From the NCBI RefSeq assembly GCF_005116675.2, contig NZ_CP050699.1:4583001-4647000 (forward strand): DNA of 64,000 nt, in the 5' to 3' direction. Made by a program: the position numbers and the translations under genes. This document shows positions 65-15,990 of the stretch, piece by piece. Within the stretch, counting starts at the first letter, position 1; the number at the start of each line of letters is the position of its first letter. Below the pieces are notes generated by a model. It was given only the letters and a program-made list of their open reading frames with translations. It did no database searches and was not told where the DNA came from. Source of the DNA: Desulfosediminicola ganghwensis. GTDB taxonomy: Bacteria > Desulfobacterota > Desulfobulbia > Desulfobulbales > Desulfocapsaceae.

Positions 65-475
65 GAACTGCAACTGCAACTGCAGGTTGGACGTGGGATG
101 TTGGACGTTGGACGTAACTGCAACGGCAACGGCGAAAGAAACAGTGAGGGGTAAGGTGCTAGGTGGGAGGAGGGACGGCAACTGCAACAGCGAAAAAACG
201 GGTTGGACGGGGGATGTAACTGCAAATGCGACTGCCAAGACAGGTAGGAGGGAGGTGAGAGGGGTTAGGAGGGACGGCAACTGCTGAACTGCAACTGCAT
301 GTTGGACGATAGACGTAGGACGGGGGGACTGCGTTAACGACGACGGAAAAGGCGGGTGGCAAATAACGGCAGGTTGGACGTAGGACGTGGGACGTGGGAC
401 GAAAAAGCCACAGCAACGGTAACTGCGGCAATAGATAGGTGGGAAGGGGAATGGGACTGCTACTGCAGTTACTGG
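65..475. repeat. Mosaic of degenerate heptamers and hexamers (copy R1)
   Basis: This 400-base noncoding stretch is built from short degenerate words. Heptamers GTTGGAC, GTGGGAT, GTAGGAC and GTGGGAC run head to tail (for example four in a row at 373-400), alternating with AACTGC/AACGGC hexamer runs and the phrase ggaggGACGGCAACTGC. Apparent ORFs on both strands are low-complexity (Asn-Cys-Asn-Cys, or Pro/Thr/Val runs), lack ribosome binding sites and are not credible genes. The same mosaic recurs at four other places in the window. Its origin and function are unknown. It forms the left border of the lasso locus. Confidence 0.85.
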
Positions 476-576: not shown

Positions 577-652
577 CTTTTCGGTAAAGGAGTAATACTA
601 TCTCTTTTGGCCAACATTTTTTGTTAAAATTTAGTTTTTTGAATTGGATAAA

Positions 653-943
653 ATGATTTCTTTTGACCAACATGTTGAGATATCTCAAGAAGTACTGTCG
701 CAGGAGGTTGATGGCGAAACCGTTATTCTCGATATGCGCAGTGAAAATTACTTTGGTCTCGATGAAATAGGTACCGATATTTGGCGTCTGCTGAAAGAGC
801 AGAAAACGCTGCAGGAAGTCTTCGATATTCTCTTAGACGAGTATGAGGTAGAAGAACAGGTGCTACGCCAGCATTTGGAGGATCATATTTCAGAACTCTG
901 TAAAGCTGAACTCATATCCCTGAAACCTGTGGATCAGCGTTGA
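653..943 (+). CDS. PqqD-like RiPP recognition element protein (lasso B1)
   Basis: Small acidic protein of 96 residues of the PqqD family, the free-standing RiPP recognition element that binds the leader of a precursor and presents it to the maturation enzymes. The family pattern is visible: an N-terminal beta region with VILDMRSENYFGLDEIGTDI, then a helical region ending in a Leu/Glu-rich helix. It opens a tightly packed operon with the McjB-like protease, kinase and cyclase. ATG at 653 is preferred over an in-frame TTG at 644; neither has a strong ribosome binding site. In lasso systems this protein (B1) recognises a Y/W-x2-P-x-L leader motif, which is present in the convergent precursor at 4210-4407. 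Confidence 0.85.
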   Translation: MISFDQHVEISQEVLSQEVDGETVILDMRSENYFGLDEIGTDIWRLLKEQKTLQEVFDILLDEYEVEEQVLRQHLEDHISELCKAELISLKPVDQR

Positions 944-968
944 CCTGGGTTGTGGTTAAGGGTTTGTG

Positions 969-1427
969 ATGTTTGGCCGAATCAAAAGATTTGCAGAACT
1001 CGACAGAGGAGACAGGAAACTCTTTCTGGAAGCATACCTTATACTCGGGATCATGCGCACAGCGATTCTGATCCTGCCATTCAAACGAATTACCCGTTCC
1101 CTTATCCATAGAAAAAACCTGATGAATGTCTCTTGCCTAGCTGCAGGAGACAGCCCACAGGCTCTTTCCGTCGGCATGGCTGTCAGAAGAGCGGCAAATT
1201 ACACTCCCTGGCAGAGTGCCTGCCTGGCCCAGTCATTAACGGTCTGGCGGATGCTTCAAAGGCGAAATATTCCCGGTATCTTTTTCCTCGGTGTAGCAAG
1301 GGATACGGTAAACAAGGGACAGCTGCGAGCCCACTCCTGGTCACGACATGGAGATGCTATTCTTACTGGCAAGACAGGTCATGAAGATTTCACGGTTGTC
1401 TCCGCCTATTCATGGGGAGATATATGA
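969..1427 (+). CDS. Lasso peptide leader protease (B2, McjB C-terminal type)
   Basis: Transglutaminase-like cysteine protease of 152 residues, matching the stand-alone McjB C-terminal domain that cuts the lasso leader before cyclisation. Cys in WQSACLAQSL (about residue 85) and His in the LRAHSWSRHGD stretch (about residue 122) fit the Cys-His part of the triad, with a nearby Asp as likely third member. ATG at 969 is chosen because AAGGG lies six bases upstream; a GTG at 966 is also in frame. The last four bases overlap the start of the kinase gene (ATGA), indicating translational coupling. The split B1/B2 arrangement, rather than a fused McjB, is common outside the enterobacterial microcin J25 type. 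Confidence 0.85.
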   Translation: MFGRIKRFAELDRGDRKLFLEAYLILGIMRTAILILPFKRITRSLIHRKNLMNVSCLAAGDSPQALSVGMAVRRAANYTPWQSACLAQSLTVWRMLQRRNIPGIFFLGVARDTVNKGQLRAHSWSRHGDAILTGKTGHEDFTVVSAYSWGDI

Positions 1428-2308
1428 TTGTTTACGGCACGAAGGTGGAATGCGACCTCCCCTTCCCTCTGCAACTTCCCCAGGAGTCCTTTCACCGCTA
1501 TTCATGTAACCTCCTGGCAGGCCCTCCCGACCATCTCAAGAAGCTGATCACCTGCGGTTTCCCCTTCTACCAGGCACATGGGCGTCATGTCTATCTTTAT
1601 TCCGATCGGATCTTCGACAGGAGCGAAGGCGGTCAACCCTGGTGCTATGAGGTGAAAGATGTGGTGCGCTTTTACTGGCTCGGAGGAGAGAGGACTATTT
1701 ACTACCGGCTGGATAAAGCAGGCGATGCCCGGCTGCTCAGCTTCTGGTTTATCCATCTCGTCCTCCCCCTCTATTTCACCCTGGAGGGTATGTACGACTT
1801 TCTCCATGCCGGAGCGGTGGAGGTGGAGGGCAGGCCCCTTCTTTTTATCGCTCCCTCCATGGGGGGCAAGTCAACAATGACCGATAACTTTATCCGCCAG
1901 GGGCACTCCCTTATTACCGATGACAAGCTGGCCACATATATCGACAATAACAGGTTTATGGCGGTTACCTCACACCCCTACCATCGCCCCTACCGAAAGT
2001 TTGAGGAGTTGGGCTACAGAGTCGAGAACTTCAGCACGGAAAGTAAACCCATTCAGGGTATTTATATCCTGGCCGGGTGCGGCCCTGACGAGGACATTTT
2101 GATTGAGGAGGTTAAAGGATATAAGAAGTTCGACACCCTGCTGCCCAATTATCTTTATATGTTTTCTTACCTCAGGGCAAAGCGGCTCGCCTATCTAACC
2201 TCTATGCTGAACTCAATCAGGGTCTTTCGGGTGCGGGTGCCGTGGGATAAAGACAGGCTGGCTGAGGTACACGCCGCAATCACTGAGCACAGTAAGGTTA
2301 CGCAATGA
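1424..2308 (+). CDS. HprK-like kinase of the lasso locus
   Basis: Protein of 294 residues resembling the C-terminal kinase domain of HPr kinase/phosphorylase. The conserved His region (LHAGAVEV, about residues 127-134), P-loop APSMGGKST (143-151) and a following DD pair (166-167) are in the usual order. HprK homologues in paeninodin-type lasso clusters phosphorylate the C-terminal Ser of the precursor, and the precursor here ends in Ser. GGGGAG just upstream supports ATG 1424 over ATG 1412, and this start overlaps the protease stop as ATGA. The gene in turn overlaps the cyclase by four bases. Kinase identity is well supported; the substrate is inferred from context. Confidence 0.8.
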   Translation: MIVYGTKVECDLPFPLQLPQESFHRYSCNLLAGPPDHLKKLITCGFPFYQAHGRHVYLYSDRIFDRSEGGQPWCYEVKDVVRFYWLGGERTIYYRLDKAGDARLLSFWFIHLVLPLYFTLEGMYDFLHAGAVEVEGRPLLFIAPSMGGKSTMTDNFIRQGHSLITDDKLATYIDNNRFMAVTSHPYHRPYRKFEELGYRVENFSTESKPIQGIYILAGCGPDEDILIEEVKGYKKFDTLLPNYLYMFSYLRAKRLAYLTSMLNSIRVFRVRVPWDKDRLAEVHAAITEHSKVTQ

Positions 2309-4194
2309 GCGGAATCTTTGCCACCTGCAACCGGAACGGTCAACCGATAATTGAAGCGAAACTTGATGGTGTGCTTAGCGAATTATCCCGCTGGCAGCCG
2401 GACGACAAAGGTGTATGGTGCAACGGATCTGCAGCCCTGGCCCATGCAATGCTCTGGAACACTCCCGAATCAAAACTTGAGCGACTGCCCGATACACTGG
2501 GGCAACTTGTCATCACCATGGATGCACGGTTGGATAACCGGCAGGAGCTGGCCGACCTGCTCAACATAAAGGCTCACCCGCTGTCCCAGGTAACTGATTC
2601 CAGCCTTATTCTTGTTGCGTATGAGAGGTGGGGGGAGGATTGCCCGAAATATCTGCTGGGCGATTTTGCTTTTGTTATCTGGGACAGGAGCAAAGAGAAA
2701 ATCTTCTGCGCCAGAGACCATCTTGGTATGAAGCAAATTTATTACCACCTTACCGACAAGCTGTTCGTCTGCTCTAATGACCTTAAAACACTGGAACAAC
2801 ACCCTGACATACCAGGGGATATCTGTGATGAAGCCGTAGCCAATTATTTTGTACATTCGGAGTTGCGCCATCCGACACTGACCTTTTTCAAAAGAATAAC
2901 GAAACTGGAACCAGCCCATTTTCTCAGCGTAACCGCTGGCGAGATACGAACAAAACGTTACTGGCGTCCGGAAGACGCTCCGAGGGTGAAATTTGAGGAT
3001 GCTGAGACCTACGCCGGGAAGCTCCGGGAGTTGTTGCAACTTGCGGTGGAAGCGAGGCTGCGCAGCGACTACCCCATTACCTCCCATCTCAGCGGTGGTC
3101 TTGATTCCTCAACCATTGCTGTTATTGCCGCCCGCAAGCTGGGTGAAAGGGGTGAAAAACTGCTCGCCTTCAACTGGTTGCATGAACCAACCGAGGCAGA
3201 TGATCCGGACCATTACGAGTGGGCCAACAGCAGAACCATCGCTGAACAGGAGGGGATCATGCACTCTTATGTCTCTTTGAGTGCTGAAGATATTTTTCGC
3301 TTTTTGCGTACGGATTCAATCGCCGACGGCGACTCCGCCAGATTCTGGTACGAGTATCAAATACATACAGCTGCACAGGAAATTGGATCCCGCACTCTCC
3401 TTTCCGGCTGGGGGGGAGACGAGCTTGCCACCTATTACGGGGAAGCCTACTATTCAGACCTCCTTTGCCAGGGTAGAATTTTCACTCTCCTGAAAGAGGT
3501 GGGCCAGATAGCCGCCAAGCAGAAAGGGAACAGTGCTAGAAGATTGGCTGGCAACCTATATCATCTGGTCCTTTTACCTCTTACTCCGCGGAGCCTGTAC
3601 CGATTTATGCCTAGAAATCAATGTCCAGGAAAGCCTTCCTTTCCCTTTGTAAACAAGGATTTTCTACCACTGGTCATAAGGGAAGCAAAGAAAGAAGCCG
3701 TACTGACCATGCAGCCGCAACCAACAATCCGAAGGCACATGCTGGCCAACCTCAAGAACGGCCACATCCAGAGCCGGGTCGAGTCGTGGCATGCCGCTGC
3801 CTTAAAGAATCGGCTAGAGTATAGTTATCCCCTATTGGACAAGAGGATTGTCGAATTCATCCTCGGCGTTCCGGGCCAATATTTTGTCGATGACTATCGC
3901 ACAAGGTATCTCTTTCGCCAGGCCGCCAAAGGGTTGATGCCCGACTCCATTTTATGGAATAATTCAAAACGAGAGAAAAACAGAGTCGATCGGCTACTGA
4001 CCCTTATGTACAACGCCTGTCAAATGGAGGCGTATACCGAAAAACTTAATAACCGCGCTTCCAGATATGTGAACAAGAAAAAACTGCTGGAGATCTTGGA
4101 GAATGAAAAGGCCCATTCTTCAAAAAAAGAAATCATAGAGAATAGCATCGCCATGGCGACAGCATTCTCAGTGATGTCCTCTTTTGATAATTGA
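2305..4194 (+). CDS. Asparagine synthetase-like lasso cyclase (C protein)
   Basis: 629-residue asparagine synthetase B homologue. An N-terminal glutaminase-like domain (1 to about 190) begins MSGIF, so the catalytic Cys2 of true glutamine-using enzymes is Ser. The C-terminal synthetase domain has the ATP PP-loop SGGLDSS (263-269). Loss of Cys2 fits lasso cyclases, which activate an Asp/Glu side chain with ATP and let the peptide N-terminus attack it to form the macrolactam. The gene overlaps the kinase gene by four bases and closes the operon. Its stop lies 15 bases from the stop of the convergent precursor gene. A free-standing amino-acid amidotransferase is possible but less likely given B1, B2 and precursor alongside. 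Confidence 0.85.
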   Translation: MSGIFATCNRNGQPIIEAKLDGVLSELSRWQPDDKGVWCNGSAALAHAMLWNTPESKLERLPDTLGQLVITMDARLDNRQELADLLNIKAHPLSQVTDSSLILVAYERWGEDCPKYLLGDFAFVIWDRSKEKIFCARDHLGMKQIYYHLTDKLFVCSNDLKTLEQHPDIPGDICDEAVANYFVHSELRHPTLTFFKRITKLEPAHFLSVTAGEIRTKRYWRPEDAPRVKFEDAETYAGKLRELLQLAVEARLRSDYPITSHLSGGLDSSTIAVIAARKLGERGEKLLAFNWLHEPTEADDPDHYEWANSRTIAEQEGIMHSYVSLSAEDIFRFLRTDSIADGDSARFWYEYQIHTAAQEIGSRTLLSGWGGDELATYYGEAYYSDLLCQGRIFTLLKEVGQIAAKQKGNSARRLAGNLYHLVLLPLTPRSLYRFMPRNQCPGKPSFPFVNKDFLPLVIREAKKEAVLTMQPQPTIRRHMLANLKNGHIQSRVESWHAAALKNRLEYSYPLLDKRIVEFILGVPGQYFVDDYRTRYLFRQAAKGLMPDSILWNNSKREKNRVDRLLTLMYNACQMEAYTEKLNNRASRYVNKKKLLEILENEKAHSSKKEIIENSIAMATAFSVMSSFDN

Positions 4195-4209
4195 AAAGTT
4201 CAGAAGTGA

Positions 4210-4407
4210 CTAACTGGCGAGACCATTTGGTATTTTACCGTCTTTATTTCTGTCCATGCCTTCAGAGGGGCTATCATAATTTCCGCTCATTGTTTCCCGC
4301 AAGTTGAGCCGGGTTAGTTCAGGCCGTTTCCACTCTTTTTTTTCGCCTTCTCGGCGGGATAAAACAGCCGATGACCTTGCCGCACTGGTAGTATGAGAAT
4401 TTTTCAT
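4210..4407 (-). CDS. Lasso peptide precursor with C-terminal serine
   Basis: 65-residue peptide read against the maturation operon. ATG at 4407 is preceded by AAGAGGTGG, a strong ribosome binding site. The leader has W26-x2-P29-x-L31 and Thr39, matching the Y-x2-P-x-L...T-x signature recognised by lasso B1/B2 proteins. With Thr at -2, the core starts at Ser41 (SGNYDSPSEG...), giving a nine-residue ring closed on Glu49; alternatively Gly42 pairs with the same Glu in an eight-residue ring. The tail contains DRNKDGKI (52-59), an EF-hand-like DxNxDGxI pattern, and ends in Ser65, a plausible target of the kinase. No second precursor was found nearby. No transporter gene is in the locus, so export is unexplained. 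Confidence 0.72.
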   Translation of the reverse strand: MKNSHTTSAARSSAVLSRREGEKKEWKRPELTRLNLRETMSGNYDSPSEGMDRNKDGKIPNGLAS

Positions 4408-4770: not shown

Positions 4771-4922
4771 AAACTGCAACTGAAACTGAAACTGCAACTG
4801 CAGGTTGGACGTTGGAAGTTGGACGTGGGACGTGGGACGTGGGACGTGGGACGGGAAAGCAACTGCGGAACTGCAACGGCAACTACGGGTGGGACGAGGG
4901 GGGTGGGACAGGACTGCTGGTT
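4771..4922. repeat. Mosaic repeat copy R2 between the two RiPP loci
   Basis: AACTGC/AAACTG hexamers are followed by seven consecutive heptamers (4804-4852): GTTGGAC, GTTGGAA, GTTGGAC, then GTGGGAC four times. More AACTGC/AACGGC words and G-rich variants follow. Orientation matches R1. It separates the lasso precursor from the last gene of the radical SAM locus. ORFs across it are low-complexity and rejected. Confidence 0.85.
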
Positions 4923-4937
4923 GATTTGTGTGGCACG

Positions 4938-5372
4938 TCAAGCGTTCATAAACCCTGTTTTCAACTTCAAACGTACTATTACGTAGCGTAGCATAACCGA
5001 TAACTGGGCTAAGGATGATACTGGTGGCAGCTGCACCCACTCGCCATCTGCATTATAGGCTTCTACCCTGGCCTTTACTGAGCGAGTCGGCACAGGAGCA
5101 TCCGGCACAGCTACATTATCTCCCCAGGTCTGTACAAAGCCGGTGCCTTTCCGCCTGAATTTCCGGAAAACGCGGTGCATCACTGTTCTTGTGCTGTCGG
5201 CCTCATACACCACGATATCGCCCACCCGTATCTGCTGGATATCTATCGGCTCGAGCTTCACCACCGCATCGCGGGGAATGGTCGGTTGCATACTGCCGCC
5301 ATTGCTCTTGACAATAATGGCGGTACGCAATGAAAAGATATCCTCTATGAGGTGAACAAATTCCTTACTCAT
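4938..5372 (-). CDS. S26-family (SipW-like) signal peptidase in the radical SAM RiPP locus
   Basis: 144-residue serine peptidase of the signal peptidase I superfamily. SNGGSMQPTI places the nucleophile at Ser27. VMHRVFR places a His (66) where bacterial leader peptidases have Lys, as in SipW/eukaryotic-type enzymes. TWGDN (83-86) matches the conserved Gly-Asp-Asn box. The start ATG at 5372 overlaps the kinase stop by eight bases, so the two are coupled. No clear N-terminal membrane anchor is visible; a hydrophobic stretch lies near the C-terminus. In this context it may remove the leader of the precursor at 6485-6652, but that is inference. Confidence 0.75.
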   Translation of the reverse strand: MSKEFVHLIEDIFSLRTAIIVKSNGGSMQPTIPRDAVVKLEPIDIQQIRVGDIVVYEADSTRTVMHRVFRKFRRKGTGFVQTWGDNVAVPDAPVPTRSVKARVEAYNADGEWVQLPPVSSLAQLSVMLRYVIVRLKLKTGFMNA

Positions 5373-6252
5373 GTGCGTTGAATATATTGCGTTGTAAATG
5401 GTGAATGGCTGAAATATCCGGTAGGAAACCATACGAATATACCGGGGTAGCCTGCACAGCATCCTCAACATGGCCCATTGCCTTATATATCGTGCCTGGC
5501 AGCCAATTGAACGTTCTGGTATTTTGCAATACTGCAAAGACCGCTGTCTGAATCGACAGTCGGTCCAGTGTATTTTGCGGTGCATGGTGTAACAGCAATA
5601 TTGCATCTAACAGGCGCGGGCCAGTCGCTGTGGTGACGGGCTTATCTGGTAAAAGCGATCTATCGCTATACCAGGGGCCACCATATACCCTGGGTTTACC
5701 GGGTCCACCACTCAAAAAAGGGTTCTCGTCAGTGAGGCAGGTGCCCCCTGCGGCGACAGCCATGCGACTCAGGGTCGTTTTGCCCACACCAGAATCCCCC
5801 AGCAGCAGGAGGTGTTTGCCGTCCAGCTCAATTAAAGCGCCATGGAGCAGCACGCCTTTGCCGTGAACCGAGAAATACCCCCATAGTGCCAGCAAGGGCC
5901 AACCGCAATTTTTGAGATATGGAACCTTCGGGTTCAAATAGTCTGGTGATAAACACCAGATGCGACAGTTCGTGAACTGTTTTCTGCCGATAAAGACCTC
6001 TCTTTTCCTTCGAAATATCGACGTTTTTTCTCGTAAAAAGAATGAGGTCTGTACAGTTTCCCCGGATCGGAACAGGATAGTATCAGAGTCAAAAGGCGTC
6101 TTTCCATGAGAACATCTCAAACGGATATCGACTTCAGCATCCCCAGGACGGGATTGAAAGTCACGATAATCCCGCCCCAGCCCATAGCCTTCCTCCAGCT
6201 CAACCCGTATTACAGTGTCAGCTACCTGAATCGTTTTCTGATATGTCCCCAT
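5365..6252 (-). CDS. HprK-like kinase of the radical SAM RiPP locus
   Basis: 295-residue protein with the HprK kinase core: VLLHGALIELDG (135-146, conserved His), P-loop GDSGVGKTT (152-160) and TDEN (174-177). The first 130 residues form a domain of unknown role without the HPr-kinase N-terminal signature. It overlaps the S26 peptidase gene and lies 232 bases downstream of the precursor, with a strong dyad between them. It is similar in plan, though not closely in sequence, to the kinase in the lasso locus. HprK-like proteins with PqqD and SPASM enzymes are known from SynChlorMet-type cassettes. The substrate is unknown; no clear ribosome binding site precedes ATG 6252. Confidence 0.75.
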   Translation of the reverse strand: MGTYQKTIQVADTVIRVELEEGYGLGRDYRDFQSRPGDAEVDIRLRCSHGKTPFDSDTILFRSGETVQTSFFLREKTSIFRRKREVFIGRKQFTNCRIWCLSPDYLNPKVPYLKNCGWPLLALWGYFSVHGKGVLLHGALIELDGKHLLLLGDSGVGKTTLSRMAVAAGGTCLTDENPFLSGGPGKPRVYGGPWYSDRSLLPDKPVTTATGPRLLDAILLLHHAPQNTLDRLSIQTAVFAVLQNTRTFNWLPGTIYKAMGHVEDAVQATPVYSYGFLPDISAIHHLQRNIFNAHE

Positions 6253-6378
6253 AGGTTTTTGATAGCGCTCTGATGCAATGAGTTTGAAATCATATTGAAG
6301 AAAAGGATGTTACTCACTTCCCTCTAGATCTTGTTTATGAGAGCAACAGATACATGAGTTATACTGGCTAACCAGAAT

Positions 6379-6475
6379 GCCTCATGAACACCGTCTAATA
6401 TTAACGACACTCCCCATTGAACATCCCAGGGATTCAATGGGGAACCAGGAGAGATCCGCAGTGGTCCCATGAGGC
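6379..6475 (-). promoter_or_regulatory. Nested dyad between RiPP precursor and downstream kinase
   Basis: An outer stem GCCTCATG (6379-6386) / CATGAGGC (6468-6475) encloses a perfect ten-base stem CCCCATTGAA (6412-6421) / TTCAATGGGG (6433-6442) with an eleven-base loop. No T-tract follows on the minus strand, so it is not a standard terminator. A structure here could stabilise the short precursor transcript or reduce read-through into the kinase gene, a common arrangement in peptide operons. The stems are seen directly; the role is inferred. Confidence 0.55.
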
Positions 6476-6484
6476 AGGGCCGGG

Positions 6485-6652
6485 CTAATTACATTTCTGA
6501 TTCTGCCCATCCAGGCAACCGGTCTCAAATGCAGCTTTACCGCCTGAAGCTGTATGGCATGAAGCCACCACGTCTTTATCAAATTCAAGACGCACGTCTT
6601 TTACTACCGGCTTTTCCCACTGTTTCTTCTCGTCATTTCTCTTTTCTTTCAT
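6485..6652 (-). CDS. Three-cysteine RiPP precursor peptide
   Basis: 55-residue peptide with a good ribosome binding site (GGGGAAG, then ATC before ATG 6652). The leader contains EKKQWEKPVV (8-17), nearly the same motif as EKKEWKRPEL in the lasso precursor, and is rich in charged residues. The likely core follows DVVASC and carries Cys32, Cys46 and Cys54, a Gly-Gly pair and a polar C-terminus ending QKCN. It sits 29 bases after the radical SAM gene and in the same direction. Small size, leader/core layout and neighbours mark it as the substrate of the radical SAM/SPASM enzyme. The type of bond (thioether, C-C link or epimer) cannot be told from sequence. Confidence 0.75.
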   Translation of the reverse strand: MKEKRNDEKKQWEKPVVKDVRLEFDKDVVASCHTASGGKAAFETGCLDGQNQKCN

Positions 6653-6681
6653 GATACTTCCCCTGTTCGTGTTGTTTTTGC

Positions 6682-7752
6682 TCAGTTCCGCTCTAAGCAG
6701 TAACGATATCGCTTAAATCGCTCCTCCCCCAACGTACAATGATATTCCGTAGGTCCTTCCTGCCCCCCCCCTTCCCGCAAGGCAAAGGCCGGGCAAATCC
6801 TACAGAATATTCGAAGATCACATGTTGTGCATTTGCTGTCACCCGGCTTGAGGTTGCTCAGCTGTTCCGGCACCACCTCCCGCCAGCCATCTCGAACAGA
6901 ACCTGACCTGAGATTATATTTCAGAGGTTCCAGCACCTGGCACGCCCGCATATTCCCATACGGGTCGATGGCAAAGCCCCGTTCTCCCAAGGCACACCGG
7001 TATGACTTTCCAGTGTCGTATTTCTTCCCGAAAGAACGGCTGTAGAGTTTTTCAAGCTCCTTAACACGCTGTGAATCCTGGGCTTCAAGCGCCACGACCT
7101 GCCCTGGCGCAATTCTTTCCTCAAACGGTTTCCCTTGGCTGCCCTCTGTTGCCCCGAACAGCTCTGCATCCCAGGTAAAGTTCTTTGAAAATTTCAGGTT
7201 GAGTTCTTTCAGTTGTGCAAATTCATCTATGTTGCGCCGGGTGATTATTGAACGTGTAAGCAGGGGCAGTTCTGCAGCCCGCATTATCTCAAGGTTGTTC
7301 ATCACTACTTCAAACATGCTTGCGGAGCCCGCAACCTGCTCATAACTGTCTGGCGACGCACCGTATATGGAAACTGCCACCTCATTGGGAGACCATTTCC
7401 TGAAAAAATCGATCCAGTCAGGTGAAAGAAGACTGCCATTGGTGAAAAGACTCACCAGAAAGCCTTTTTCCTTGGCACAGATCCATAGTTCTTTAAAGTC
7501 TGGCCGCAACAAGGGTTCACCACCGGTAAACGTTAAAAAAAGAGCCCCCTCGGCAGCACTTTCTTCCAGGATTCTTTCCCATTCATCAAGCGGCAATTCC
7601 TTGCTGAGCGAAGGACCATTTGCAGGAACCCGGCAATAGCAATGTTTGCAACGAAAATTACACCTATAGGTAAGTTCACACTTTATCGACAGAGGAACCC
7701 GTGGATCCTTGACCACCATTGAGTCAAGCACTGTGTTGAAATTACAGAGCAT
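6682..7752 (-). CDS. Radical SAM/SPASM peptide maturase
   Basis: 356-residue enzyme. The radical SAM cluster motif is CNFRCKHCYC (Cys31, 35, 38), followed by the GGEPLLRPDF stretch that binds SAM. A C-terminal SPASM domain holds auxiliary-cluster cysteines: YRCALGERGFAIDPYGNMRAC, CTTC, CRIC and a final CTLGE. This is the architecture of PqqE-like and sactipeptide/ranthipeptide maturases. A PqqD-like protein is encoded 14 bases upstream and the three-Cys precursor 29 bases downstream, so it very probably modifies that peptide. It is the only radical SAM gene in the window. The modification chemistry is unknown. Confidence 0.9.
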   Translation of the reverse strand: MLCNFNTVLDSMVVKDPRVPLSIKCELTYRCNFRCKHCYCRVPANGPSLSKELPLDEWERILEESAAEGALFLTFTGGEPLLRPDFKELWICAKEKGFLVSLFTNGSLLSPDWIDFFRKWSPNEVAVSIYGASPDSYEQVAGSASMFEVVMNNLEIMRAAELPLLTRSIITRRNIDEFAQLKELNLKFSKNFTWDAELFGATEGSQGKPFEERIAPGQVVALEAQDSQRVKELEKLYSRSFGKKYDTGKSYRCALGERGFAIDPYGNMRACQVLEPLKYNLRSGSVRDGWREVVPEQLSNLKPGDSKCTTCDLRIFCRICPAFALREGGGQEGPTEYHCTLGEERFKRYRYCLERN

Positions 7753-7766
7753 TACAACAGACCTCT

Positions 7767-8045
7767 TTATTCATTGACAATACAGATTCCCGATTTCACA
7801 AAGCTGTCAAAAGTAGCCCGGACATCTCGCTTGAGAAGGGTATCTTCAACGTTATAAATACCGCTAAGTCGCTCTAGTACCTCCTTCTGTGACTTTTCAG
7901 TATCCAGACAATCCCAGATTGCTGCTGCGGTCCCGTTTAAATGCTTAATTTTCTGTAAATCTGCACCAACTGTTGTTATCGGGATCAGTAAAAATTCACC
8001 TGCCACTTCTCTACCCACGTAATTATCGCTTCGCCTGATTTTCAT
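7767..8045 (-). CDS. PqqD-like RiPP recognition protein of the radical SAM locus
   Basis: 92-residue PqqD-family protein starting MKIRRSDNYVGREVAGEF and containing the typical helix around LNGTAAAIWDCLDTEKSQKEVLERL. It is the first gene of the minus-strand operon and is followed after 14 bases by the SPASM enzyme. PqqD-like proteins bind the leader of the precursor and dock on the radical SAM enzyme. It differs clearly in sequence from the RRE protein at 653-943, so the two loci are not a simple duplication. No strong ribosome binding site is seen. Confidence 0.85.
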   Translation of the reverse strand: MKIRRSDNYVGREVAGEFLLIPITTVGADLQKIKHLNGTAAAIWDCLDTEKSQKEVLERLSGIYNVEDTLLKRDVRATFDSFVKSGICIVNE

Positions 8046-8337
8046 TTCTTTGTGTACCTGGTTAAATATTCAATGCTCAGCTATAAGCCCGTACCATCGA
8101 CATAAAATCAATTAATTTGACAAACAATTGCAGCTATTTGCCAGATATACGCTTCTTAACATAGCTAGGCACAATTGCAATAGGCAATTATACGCATTTG
8201 CAGTCACTTAACTGCATACCAACACTTCCCAGGGCTTTATTTATAAGGCATAAATCGACTAATTTAATATTTGTAACGTTAATTGAATAACTTGCAGAGC
8301 AAGTTAAACAAAAATGCGGCCGAGAAGGGAAAGTGGC
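8046..8337 (-). promoter_or_regulatory. AT-rich upstream region of the radical SAM operon with repeated ACAATTGCA
   Basis: No gene is visible. The words ACAATTGCA occur at about 8124 and 8170, and related ATTTGC/GCAATT words lie around them. A short hairpin AACTTGC-aga-GCAAGTT occupies 8289-8305. These are candidate regulator sites in front of the operon. No convincing -35/-10 pair was identified. Confidence 0.3.
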
Positions 8338-8605
8338 GGAACTGCGAAACTACAAGTTGGATGTTGGACGTTGGATGGGGGACGGGAAATCAACTGCAAC
8401 TGAAACTGCACGTTGGAAGGGGGACGGAACTACGAGTTGGATGTTGGAGGTAACTACAAAAACGGGGAGGAGGAAAATCAGATTGTAAGGAGGGAGGGGT
8501 GAGGGGTTAGGAGGAACGGCAACTGCTGGAACTGCTGAACTGCAGGTTGGACGGGACTGCGAGTTGGACGTTGGAGGTGGGACGTAACTACAACAACAAC
8601 TGCTT
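8338..8605. repeat. Mosaic repeat copy R3
   Basis: Same word family and orientation as R1: GTTGGAT/GTTGGAC heptamers (8355-8375 and later), AACTGC hexamers, and the phrase GAGGGGTTAGGAGGaACGGCAACTGCTG, which is almost identical to a stretch of R1 near 255-290. It is noncoding. It forms the outer border of the radical SAM locus and abuts the leuA terminator. Confidence 0.85.
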
Positions 8606-8613
8606 AAGGGCAA

Positions 8614-8638
8614 AGGGCCCGGCATGGAACCGGGCCCT
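8614..8638 (-). terminator. GC-rich hairpin after leuA
   Basis: AGGGCCCGG (8614-8622) and CCGGGCCCT (8630-8638) form a perfect nine-base stem with a seven-base loop, eight bases beyond the leuA stop. The T-tract on the minus strand is weak (TTTGCCCTT), so termination strength is uncertain. Confidence 0.55.
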
Positions 8639-14530: not shown

Positions 14531-15478
14531 TCATCTTTGTTCAGCATAAGTAGGCGACCAAGTGGTTTGATTTCTCACCATGACATTTAGGATGGTTAAG
14601 AGTTTCCGCATGCATGCCGTCAGAGCAACCTTAGGCTTTTTTCCACGAGCAATTAATTGCTCGTGGAAAGTCCTGATGACAGGGTTGCAGCGTGCGGCTG
14701 TCAAAGCCCCCATATACAAGACAGATCTTATCTGGGCTCTCCCTCCCCATATTCTTCGGGAACCGCGAAAAAAGCCGCTATCTCGATTGAGTGGAGCTAC
14801 TCCGGCCAGTGCTGCCACCTCTTTTCTGTTGAGTTGGCCCAACTCAGGCAAGCCTGCTAGGAGTGCAAGCGACAATACTGGTCCTACACCTGGCACGCTT
14901 TGTAATATTTTATCGTTTACTCGCCAGACATCTGATTGCTGGATGAGCTTTTGGAGATCCCCATCAACGTTTTGCAAACGTTTTTCCAGCCATTTGATAT
15001 GTGCTTCAAGATCTTTGCGAACATGTTTTGTAGAGCATCTAAGGCGATTTTTTTCCATAGTTAACATGTCCACAATTTGCCTGCGGCGCACTAGAACAGC
15101 ATCCAATTCTCGAGCTTGCTCGTCTTTGATCGGTCGAGGTTCTGGTCGAATAGCTTCACCAAATCGAGCGATTATTTCAGAATCGATAGAATCTGTTTTT
15201 GCCAACTTGCCAGTAGCTTTAGCAAAGTCCCTCACCTGTCTGGGGTTTACTACGACAATGGGTAGGAATTTCTTGGCAAGTTCACTTACGAGGGGAATCT
15301 CAAGGCCGCCCGTTGATTCAAGAACAATCAATGTAGGCTGTAATTCCTCAAAGCGTTTTACCAGAGCGGAAATTTCCGTTGGAGCATTGGCTGTACTCCA
15401 TTTTTCCTTGGTTGGCCGAACGGCGATGTCCAGCTTAGTTTTTGATACATCAATTCCAATAAATATCTGTTGATCCAT
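14531..15478 (-). CDS. IS110-family transposase (DEDD recombinase)
   Basis: 315-residue transposase. The N-terminal DEDD domain has FIGIDVSKTKLD (Asp10), LIVLESTGG (Glu54) and KTDSIDSEII (Asp96/99). The C-terminal transposase_20 domain has VPGVGPV, a LAGVAPLNRDSG stretch and the SGFFRGSRRIWGG region that supplies the conserved Ser. The frame is intact, so the element may be active. IS110 enzymes work with a structured bridge RNA encoded in the element ends. It is transcribed against psd and pssA. A long antisense ORF on the plus strand is a shadow. Confidence 0.92.
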   Translation of the reverse strand: MDQQIFIGIDVSKTKLDIAVRPTKEKWSTANAPTEISALVKRFEELQPTLIVLESTGGLEIPLVSELAKKFLPIVVVNPRQVRDFAKATGKLAKTDSIDSEIIARFGEAIRPEPRPIKDEQARELDAVLVRRRQIVDMLTMEKNRLRCSTKHVRKDLEAHIKWLEKRLQNVDGDLQKLIQQSDVWRVNDKILQSVPGVGPVLSLALLAGLPELGQLNRKEVAALAGVAPLNRDSGFFRGSRRIWGGRAQIRSVLYMGALTAARCNPVIRTFHEQLIARGKKPKVALTACMRKLLTILNVMVRNQTTWSPTYAEQR

Positions 15479-15650
15479 GTTAGATTTCCGTTTCCCAGCC
15501 TTGTGAAATGCGGGCTCTTAGTAAGGCCCCGGCAACTGTTCGGGTTAAGCAGAAAGGACCATAACGACCAGCGCTCACACACGGGCTCGTAGTTTAATTG
15601 TCCCAAGGAGTGGTCGATCTGTTACGGTCATGTAGCGAAATATGTTACTT
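15479..15650 (-). ncRNA. Candidate bridge RNA region of the IS110 element
   Basis: In IS110 elements of the IS621 type a bridge RNA of about 180 bases lies upstream of the transposase gene. This 170-base noncoding segment has the right place and size and contains possible stem-loops, such as a GGGC...GCCC pair around 15511-15527. It also has two similar words, CGAGCCCGTGTGTGA and AGAGCCCGCATTTCA, that could sit in paired loops. The assignment is by position only; no fold was computed. Confidence 0.3.
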
Positions 15651-15704
15651 AGTAAACTATGTAGGAGTATGGGCGCAACATACAAGGGGTTAGGTGAAAA
15701 AACA

Positions 15705-15990
15705 CTTCCTCCTCACTCCTCTCACCTCCCACGCCTTTTCTGCAGTCGCAGTTCGCTGTTCGCTGTTGCAGTCTCTCCTCCCCCTTCACACCTACCACCT
15801 CACACGCCTTTCCCTGCAGTTCCAGTTCGCTGTTCGCTGTTGCAGTCTCTCCTCTCCCTTCACACCTACCACCTCACACGCCTTTCCCTGCAGTTGCAGT
15901 TCCGTCCAACGTCCAACGTCCCACGTCCAACCTGCCGTTATGTCCAACATCCAACGCCTTCCCTGCAGTTCGCAGTTCTGCAGTTCCACC
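15705..15990. repeat. Mosaic repeat copy R5, inverted, with a 74-base tandem duplication
   Basis: Reverse-complement words of the mosaic: GTCCAAC/GTCCCAC heptamers at about 15903-15955 and GCAGTT words throughout. Inside it a unit of about 74 bases is duplicated nearly exactly (15749-15822 and 15823-15896), each with CAGTTCGCTGTTCGCTGTTG and a CACACCTACCACCTCACACG phrase. Together with 15990-16103 the stretch holds no credible gene. It separates the IS110 element from pssA. Confidence 0.8.

Follow-up and report, generated by a model that had tools for sequence, protein, structure and literature searches.

At positions 4938-8045 of a 64,000-nucleotide stretch of Desulfosediminicola ganghwensis DNA (NZ_CP050699.1, positions 4,583,001 to 4,647,000; hereafter the window), five genes run in one direction on the minus strand, from 8045 to 4938, and an earlier note on this DNA had placed them correctly. 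In order, they encode a PqqD-like protein, a SPASM radical S-adenosylmethionine (SAM) enzyme, a precursor peptide, an HprK-like kinase and an S26 peptidase, a gene set for a putative ribosomally synthesised and post-translationally modified peptide (RiPP). The first product (7767..8045, 92 aa) is a discrete RiPP recognition element (RRE), or PqqD-like peptide chaperone, that scores 40.9 bits against Pfam PqqD (cutoff 23.4) and has counterparts at the equal position in loci L123 and L124. The maturase (6682..7752, 356 aa) scores 86.2 bits against Pfam Radical_SAM (cutoff 29.5), and the precursor (6485..6652, 55 aa) combines a WEKP leader motif with VVASC, three cysteines and a C-terminal Asn. 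The kinase (5365..6252, 295 aa), recognised from an alignment, a motif table and the HprK structures among its PDB matches, has H137, a Walker A motif with K158 and Asp-Glu replacing Asp-Asp. The last gene (4938..5372, 144 aa) encodes a SipW/SEC11-type peptidase with S27, H66 and D91. The order PqqD, radical SAM enzyme, precursor, kinase, S26 peptidase is found again in seven other loci, namely L123 (G004), L124 (G011), L220 (G201), L221 (G134), L228 (G366), L233 (G169) and L238 (G372), so the grouping is more than chance; in four of the seven (L220, L221, L233 and L238) a nucleotidyltransferase-like gene comes next. Gene content, conservation and motifs bear out the proposal of the earlier note in part and support the locus as a real, conserved radical SAM RiPP locus with a dedicated, predicted signal-peptidase-like leader protease. 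Between precursor and kinase (within 6395-6484, minus strand), a hairpin folds no better than shuffled sequences (z -0.63). A separate count gave 7 promoter-like sites against 5.9 expected and 2 terminator-like sites against 4.4 expected.

The maturase qualifies as a radical SAM SPASM RiPP maturase in the broad sense, with CxxxCxxC and SPASM cysteines and with an RRE and a small precursor beside it. Its SPASM-type cysteines (C253, C271, C308, C311, C317, C320 and C339) are conserved without exception in the 10 relatives aligned. Among the best 25 of its 82 NCBIfam matches none exceeds its own cutoff, including ScmE (83.7 bits, cutoff 400), ScmF (56.5, cutoff 400), PapB (64.8, cutoff 340), SkfB (67.8, cutoff 300) and StsB (56.4, cutoff 625). 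The nearest solved structures are those of SkfB, a sactisynthase and the best match, and PqqE, followed by 5v1q and 5wgg. Across 395 genomes of the phylum, a score gap lies between the last listed family member (9.2e-55) and the remaining radical SAM enzymes, which begin at 2.5e-50. The family so delimited comprises 65 genes in 44 fetched loci, which include the window and two Omnitrophota contigs, several of the loci being contigs or places of one genome (e.g. G117, G154, G418, G476). It splits into groups of 32 and 12, and a locus may hold one, two or three family enzymes. In the maturase tree the window groups with G004 (100/98), and the two Omnitrophota enzymes join this clade (95/88). The kinase is fused to a family maturase in L125, L129, L222, L226, L229 and L232. 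An earlier description of this maturase and peptide family was not found in the open-licence literature searched, so that its absence from print is not established.

The window precursor, whose leader contains WEKPVVKDVRLEFDKDVVAS, has no match in Pfam or NCBIfam up to E 1 and is judged real because relatives sit near the same genes in other genomes. Related precursors number 35 in 25 loci of the larger maturase group, the window's included; to these may be added that of L244, read without a clear start codon, while the search pattern dropped two found by profile, in L021 (ending in Thr) and L022 (ending in Ser). The counted precursors end in Ser (30) or Thr (2) in 32 of 35 cases, against 15.6% of 2575 control open reading frames (ORFs) from these loci and 11% among 146 genes for enzymes. 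The three exceptions are the window (Asn), its sister G004 (Lys) and G003 (Cys). From the motif cysteine onward, 24 of the 35 hold three cysteines and eight hold four, by a script that under-counts the precursors of L128 (two each, scored as one). Smaller-group precursors, read by eye and outside the 35, end in Ser in L247, L249, L251 and L252 and in Gly in L210. A reading of 'VLAxC' as a lipobox was rejected, as charged residues rather than a hydrophobic signal precede the motif. The shared features give a rule for finding further precursors: [W/Y]xxP, VLxxC, three cysteines and a terminal Ser.

The longest ORF of the peptidase gene spans 4938-5606, but homology begins at ATG 5372, the likely start, which overlaps the kinase stop. 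The 144-residue product matches TIGR02228, the archaeal-type signal peptidase I model, at 61.9 bits (cutoff 51.85), and its best PDB matches are SEC11C/A. The earlier note had drawn attention to Ser/His in place of Ser/Lys; the pair is indeed present, but it is the rule in this branch rather than an oddity. Among 50 aligned peptidases, the His and the Asp of the GD motif are each found in 50 and the Ser in 47 (two have Cys, and L123 is cut short in the alignment with its Ser in frame). The spacing of S27, H66 and D91 (39 and 25) equals that of S29, H68 and D93 in LppS, the SipW homologue of the linear polyphosphorylated peptide (LPP) pathway of Bacillota described from the lpp cluster of Paenibacillus alginolyticus (Popov et al., May 2026; PMC13381572), a likeness of residues from which cleavage is predicted by analogy. 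The highest 19-residue hydropathy mean of the window peptidase is 1.33, which gives no clear membrane helix. Elsewhere, an S26 peptidase is fused to a nucleotidyltransferase-like domain (L021 9118-10839, L256 8196-9743 and L292 from 441).

Searching 97 related genomes with the single peptidase gave matches in 5, the window's own included, and profiles added copies in G011 and G024; all seven genomes have a relative of the maturase and one of the kinase in the same locus. On a wider scale, 62 peptidase loci were compared (62 of the 63 matches at E<=3.7e-11, with G168 left out). Within 8 kb they hold a radical SAM gene in 42 cases (20 of them of this family), a kinase in 49, PqqD in 46 and lasso enzymes in one, the window, although the seeds of the peptidase profile lay next to radical SAM genes, which biases the association count that way. 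Where peptidase and kinase occur together (49 loci), a radical SAM gene lies within 8 kb in 40 and a member of this maturase family in 19. Taking radical SAM enzymes at large, the kinase and peptidase are thus not found mostly without a maturase, the pattern which the earlier note had set against its own proposal; to this maturase family alone the pair is not tied.

The HprK-type matches of the kinase are weak and all under cutoff (Pfam Hpr_kinase_C 17.8 bits, cutoff 33.3; ScmC 22.3 bits, cutoff 125), and a profile search of the PDB returns HprK structures among other P-loop proteins. The Walker A motif is present, and the His, the Walker A Lys and the first Asp are intact. In 93 genomes of the family (close relatives), the window kinase found relatives at E<=1e-6 only in its own genome, G004 and G043. 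AlphaFold2 models built from two-row alignments (the window and L021) were unusable, with a mean pLDDT of 44.2 for the peptidase and 29.2 for the kinase. In paeninodin-type lasso peptides, an HprK-like kinase phosphorylates the C-terminal Ser and requires a His-Lys-Asp-Asp set (PMC9266682). In the larger group here, 21 loci combine a precursor with a kinase in which Asp-Asp can be read, and in every one of them the precursor ends in Ser/Thr. The three loci with other kinase motifs, i.e. the window (Asp-Glu), G004 (Glu-Glu) and G003 (Glu-Asp), have no such ending (Fisher p 0.0005). This count was made by hand and omits loci without a precursor or readable kinase (L022, L222, L224, L225, L230, L237, L243, L245 and L253); moreover, the window and G004 are sisters, so that the 0 of 3 represents at most two independent cases. 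The pattern would support C-terminal phosphorylation in the family and makes it doubtful in the window, where the suggestion of the earlier note that the peptide is perhaps phosphorylated meets a missing terminal Ser/Thr and Asp-Glu instead of Asp-Asp. The simpler equation of an altered motif with a dead kinase was not adopted, since the smaller-group loci L251 and L252 combine Asp-Glu kinases with precursors ending in Ser.

Taken as a pathway, the locus probably makes a radical SAM RiPP that is neither a SynChlorMet nor an LPP product and that shares a kinase and peptidase module with both. The PqqD-like RRE would bind the WEKP motif of the precursor leader and pass the precursor to the SPASM enzyme. 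The latter would then install cross-links on the core cysteines, most likely thioethers, because cysteines are what the cores share and no solved enzyme is nearer than SkfB. The SipW-type peptidase, with the RRE presenting the substrate, would remove the leader, a step demonstrated in the homologous LPP system. The cut may fall within conserved sequence around DVVASC or immediately ahead of it, given the analogous distance from the leader proline in LPP. Finally, the HprK-like kinase is predicted to phosphorylate the terminal Ser in the family, with a nucleotidyltransferase extending the modification in many relatives; this last step is doubtful in the window. In the window and in G004 the kinase may be either retargeted or fading, because the terminal Ser is gone and Asp-Asp is changed.

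Several observations weigh against this pathway or parts of it. An Asp stands at the D91 position in only 39 of the 50 aligned peptidases, which slightly lowered confidence in the proposed pathway, and the catalytic Ser is replaced by Cys in L222 (10561-11562) and L225 (7192-8418). A membrane helix is possible in some relatives of the peptidase (hydropathy maxima of 1.26 to 2.34 in the eight measured, with L124 at 2.34). The residues before the proposed cut differ among relatives and follow no clean A-x-A rule. There is no radical SAM gene within 8 kb in 20 of the 62 peptidase loci, seven of these 20 being on contigs under 10 kb. The kinase gives weak matches and has an altered active site in the window, and the Asp-Glu change alone does not imply loss in view of the terminal Ser in L251 and L252. 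Furthermore, the target of the LPP kinase is core Ser3 and not the last residue (PMC13381572).

The alternative that survives best concerns the kinase, which might be functional and phosphorylate an internal Ser/Thr of the window core such as Ser31, giving a phosphorylated, cross-linked product despite the missing terminal Ser. The gene has been retained with its His, Walker A Lys and first Asp, Glu might replace Asp, and in LPP the kinase LppK acts on Ser3, beside the cut, where phosphorylation favours removal of the leader (PMC13381572). Set against this, the G004 precursor has Leu at the position of Ser31 and a Glu-Glu kinase, and in the 21 to 3 comparison above the terminal Ser is missing where the motif is altered, so internal phosphorylation is possible but rather unlikely. 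A little less likely again is that the conserved cysteines bind metal or form disulfides while the radical SAM enzyme introduces a modification that does not involve sulfur, such as a carbon-carbon link. SPASM enzymes also make links other than thioethers, as in PqqE chemistry. PqqE is among the structure matches of the maturase and the number of cysteines varies, but it is cysteines that the cores have in common and SkfB ranks first among the matches, which favours thioethers.

There is a small chance that the locus is a slimmed-down SynChlorMet cassette which has lost one of its two SPASM enzymes and still makes the same Gly/Cys-type product. The two have PqqD, an HprK-like kinase (for which ScmC is the best NCBIfam match, under cutoff) and an S26 peptidase in common, and two SynChlorMet clusters, L260 and L273, carry S26 too. 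Against it, the ScmE, ScmF and ScmC scores of the window fall far below their cutoffs, its precursor has no ScmA match up to E 1, and SynChlorMet-like precursors, read by eye, have cores of repeated Gly/Cys that differ from the three-Cys core. Lastly, it is very improbable that the kinase and peptidase serve the adjoining lasso pathway instead of the radical SAM peptide: the lasso precursor does lie downstream of the peptidase on the same strand, and in Bacillota the peptidase is often near paeninodin-like clusters (PMC13381572), but the lasso cluster owns a kinase and a B2 peptidase, and relatives pair kinase and S26 peptidase with a radical SAM enzyme, with lasso genes in one of 62 peptidase loci, the window itself.

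That paeninodin-like lasso cluster (644-4407) fell outside the range of the earlier note. On the plus strand it comprises a PqqD/B1-like RRE (644..943; Pfam PqqD 57.8 bits, cutoff 23.4; lasso_PqqD_Bac 61.8 bits, cutoff 80), a B2 leader peptidase (966..1427; NCBIfam NF033537 lasso_biosyn_B2 87 bits, cutoff 33), an HprK-like kinase with Asp-Asp by eye (1412..2308; weak HprK matches under cutoff, kinase profile 1e-8) and an asparagine synthase-like macrolactam synthetase (2305..4194; Pfam Asn_synthase 128.4 bits, cutoff 21; NF033535 407.4 bits, cutoff 525). Its candidate precursor, on the minus strand (4210..4407), has 65 aa, a WKRP leader motif and a C-terminal Ser, and scores 22.7 bits against the paeninodin family model NF033524 (cutoff 27). 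According to PMC13381572, LPP and paeninodins are restricted to Bacillota, and a Tyr/Trp rule separates LPP from lasso precursors there. If the lasso cluster is of the paeninodin kind, its precursor being just under the model cutoff, that range would widen. The Tyr/Trp rule cannot keep the two pathways of the window apart because both leaders carry WxxP (WEKP and WKRP); two neighbouring pathways in one genome, each with a WxxP leader, are a natural test of pathway discrimination.

Both peptide clusters lie between leuA and genes resembling sugar-nucleotide and polysaccharide genes, in what looks like the edge of a surface-polysaccharide locus. No nucleotidyltransferase, MsbA-, Wza- or Wzc-like genes were found in window 1-30000 or in the preceding 12.6 kb. 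Wza- and Wzc-like genes do adjoin the relatives L021, L126, L221, L233 and L238. In the congener G003 (L125), a different cluster, with three maturases, is located among sugar-nucleotide genes some 5 kb from leuA, and the leuA side of the polysaccharide locus therefore looks like a variable site. In the congener G001 sugar-nucleotide genes follow leuA and none of the profiles used matches in the fetched stretch, and in G002 leuA is at a contig end; genes in these congeners were named by eye and by BLAST to the window. From these neighbours, the product is probably surface- or polysaccharide-associated.

Other features of the region were observed in passing. Tandem GGACGTG heptamers occur at window 374-397 and 4819-4849, with 29 near-matches in the same genome and none in a reversed control, and similar low-complexity spacers were seen by eye at about 1-490, 8283-8620 and 15650-15990. 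Judged by eye, an ORF at 14531-15478, between psd-like and pssA-like genes, resembles an IS110-type transposase; at that place, no counterpart of at least 90 aa occurs in the stretches fetched from G001-G003. Two further PqqD genes are present in the same genome (G000:C1:5164187 and 5195552). In the 16 kb stretches around them, the profiles used found no relative of the maturase, kinase or S26 peptidase, and only an ABC-type gene near the first.

The five-gene set falls within a broader family of comparable gene sets that apparently has no name. More tentatively, and somewhat short of an even chance, the locus may be one branch of a large surface-polysaccharide-associated RiPP class in which a three-Cys core is cross-linked by a radical SAM enzyme, an HprK-like kinase and often a nucleotidyltransferase cap the C-terminal Ser with phosphate or a phospho-sugar, and the core is released by a SipW-type peptidase. 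With their cross-links, such peptides would parallel phosphorylated lasso peptides and LPP, and the window branch would have dropped the cap while the use of its kinase is changing. Leader proteases of the signal-peptidase type, described in a RiPP pathway in May 2026 (PMC13381572), would extend to radical SAM peptides and SynChlorMet cassettes. The main text of that paper has no occurrence of 'radical SAM', and a term search of a review of RiPP leader proteases (PMC10885120) gave no mention of signal peptidase, S26 or SipW.

Of the known systems, LPP is close in several respects. As described in PMC13381572, its gene set consists of a discrete RRE, an HprK-like kinase, an NTP transferase, a transporter and LppS. 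Without lppS, the phosphorylated precursor remains uncut; in vitro LppS cleaves only together with the RRE, and S29A, H68A and D93A each abolish cleavage. LPP clusters are also frequently found beside capsular polysaccharide loci and lasso clusters of paeninodin-like type. The window has in common with LPP the discrete RRE, an HprK-like kinase (by weak matches), a SipW-type peptidase with equal triad spacing, the [Y/W]xxP leader motif, a paeninodin-like lasso cluster nearby and polysaccharide surroundings. It differs in that the LPP kinase acts on Ser3 of the core and that nucleotidyltransferase and transporter are LPP core genes, whereas window 1-30000 and the preceding 12.6 kb gave no single-sequence profile match to an NTP transferase or MsbA-like transporter; nor does the window precursor fit the LPP leader consensus YxxPxVLxHQxIxFETxxS. 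Paeninodin-type lasso peptides resemble the family in their HprK-like kinase with a terminal Ser target, most precursors related to that of the window having such a Ser at their end. For pseudomycoidin, the addition of hexoses has been linked to a nucleotidyltransferase homologue (PMC9266682). The radical SAM locus differs from paeninodin-type clusters in having no macrolactam synthetase or B2 protein. With sactipeptides and ranthipeptides it shares a SPASM radical SAM enzyme and a Cys-bearing core, SkfB being the closest solved match; it adds a kinase and an S26 peptidase and, among the best 25 of 82 matches, passes no model of these groups.

The comparison with SynChlorMet (NCBIfam TIGR04248-TIGR04252) departs from the earlier note, which had seen a SynChlorMet-like set with an added peptidase. 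Two clusters recognised as SynChlorMet, by at least one NCBIfam SynChlorMet model over cutoff, also carry an S26 peptidase, and the peptidase consequently does not separate the window from them. In L273, ScmE reaches 559.7 bits (cutoff 400). In L260, ScmC reaches 157 bits (cutoff 125) with ScmE (366.4) and ScmF (323.1) both under 400, and the S26 peptidase is fused to the kinase and scores 51.8 bits against TIGR02228, just under its cutoff of 51.85. Kinase and S26 peptidase form one ORF in the SynChlorMet-like loci L259, L260, L261 and L262, of which L260 was run against the SynChlorMet models. SynChlorMet and the window share PqqD, a SPASM radical SAM enzyme, an HprK-like kinase and, as far as the two clusters L260 and L273 show, an S26 peptidase; they differ in that SynChlorMet has two SPASM enzymes (ScmE and ScmF) and another type of precursor, while the window has one maturase gene. 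The locus thus belongs to a family of radical SAM RiPPs that passes no curated model and whose kinase and peptidase module is common to LPP and SynChlorMet, and this suggests that one module (RRE, HprK-like kinase, S26 peptidase and often nucleotidyltransferase) serves otherwise different peptide scaffolds.

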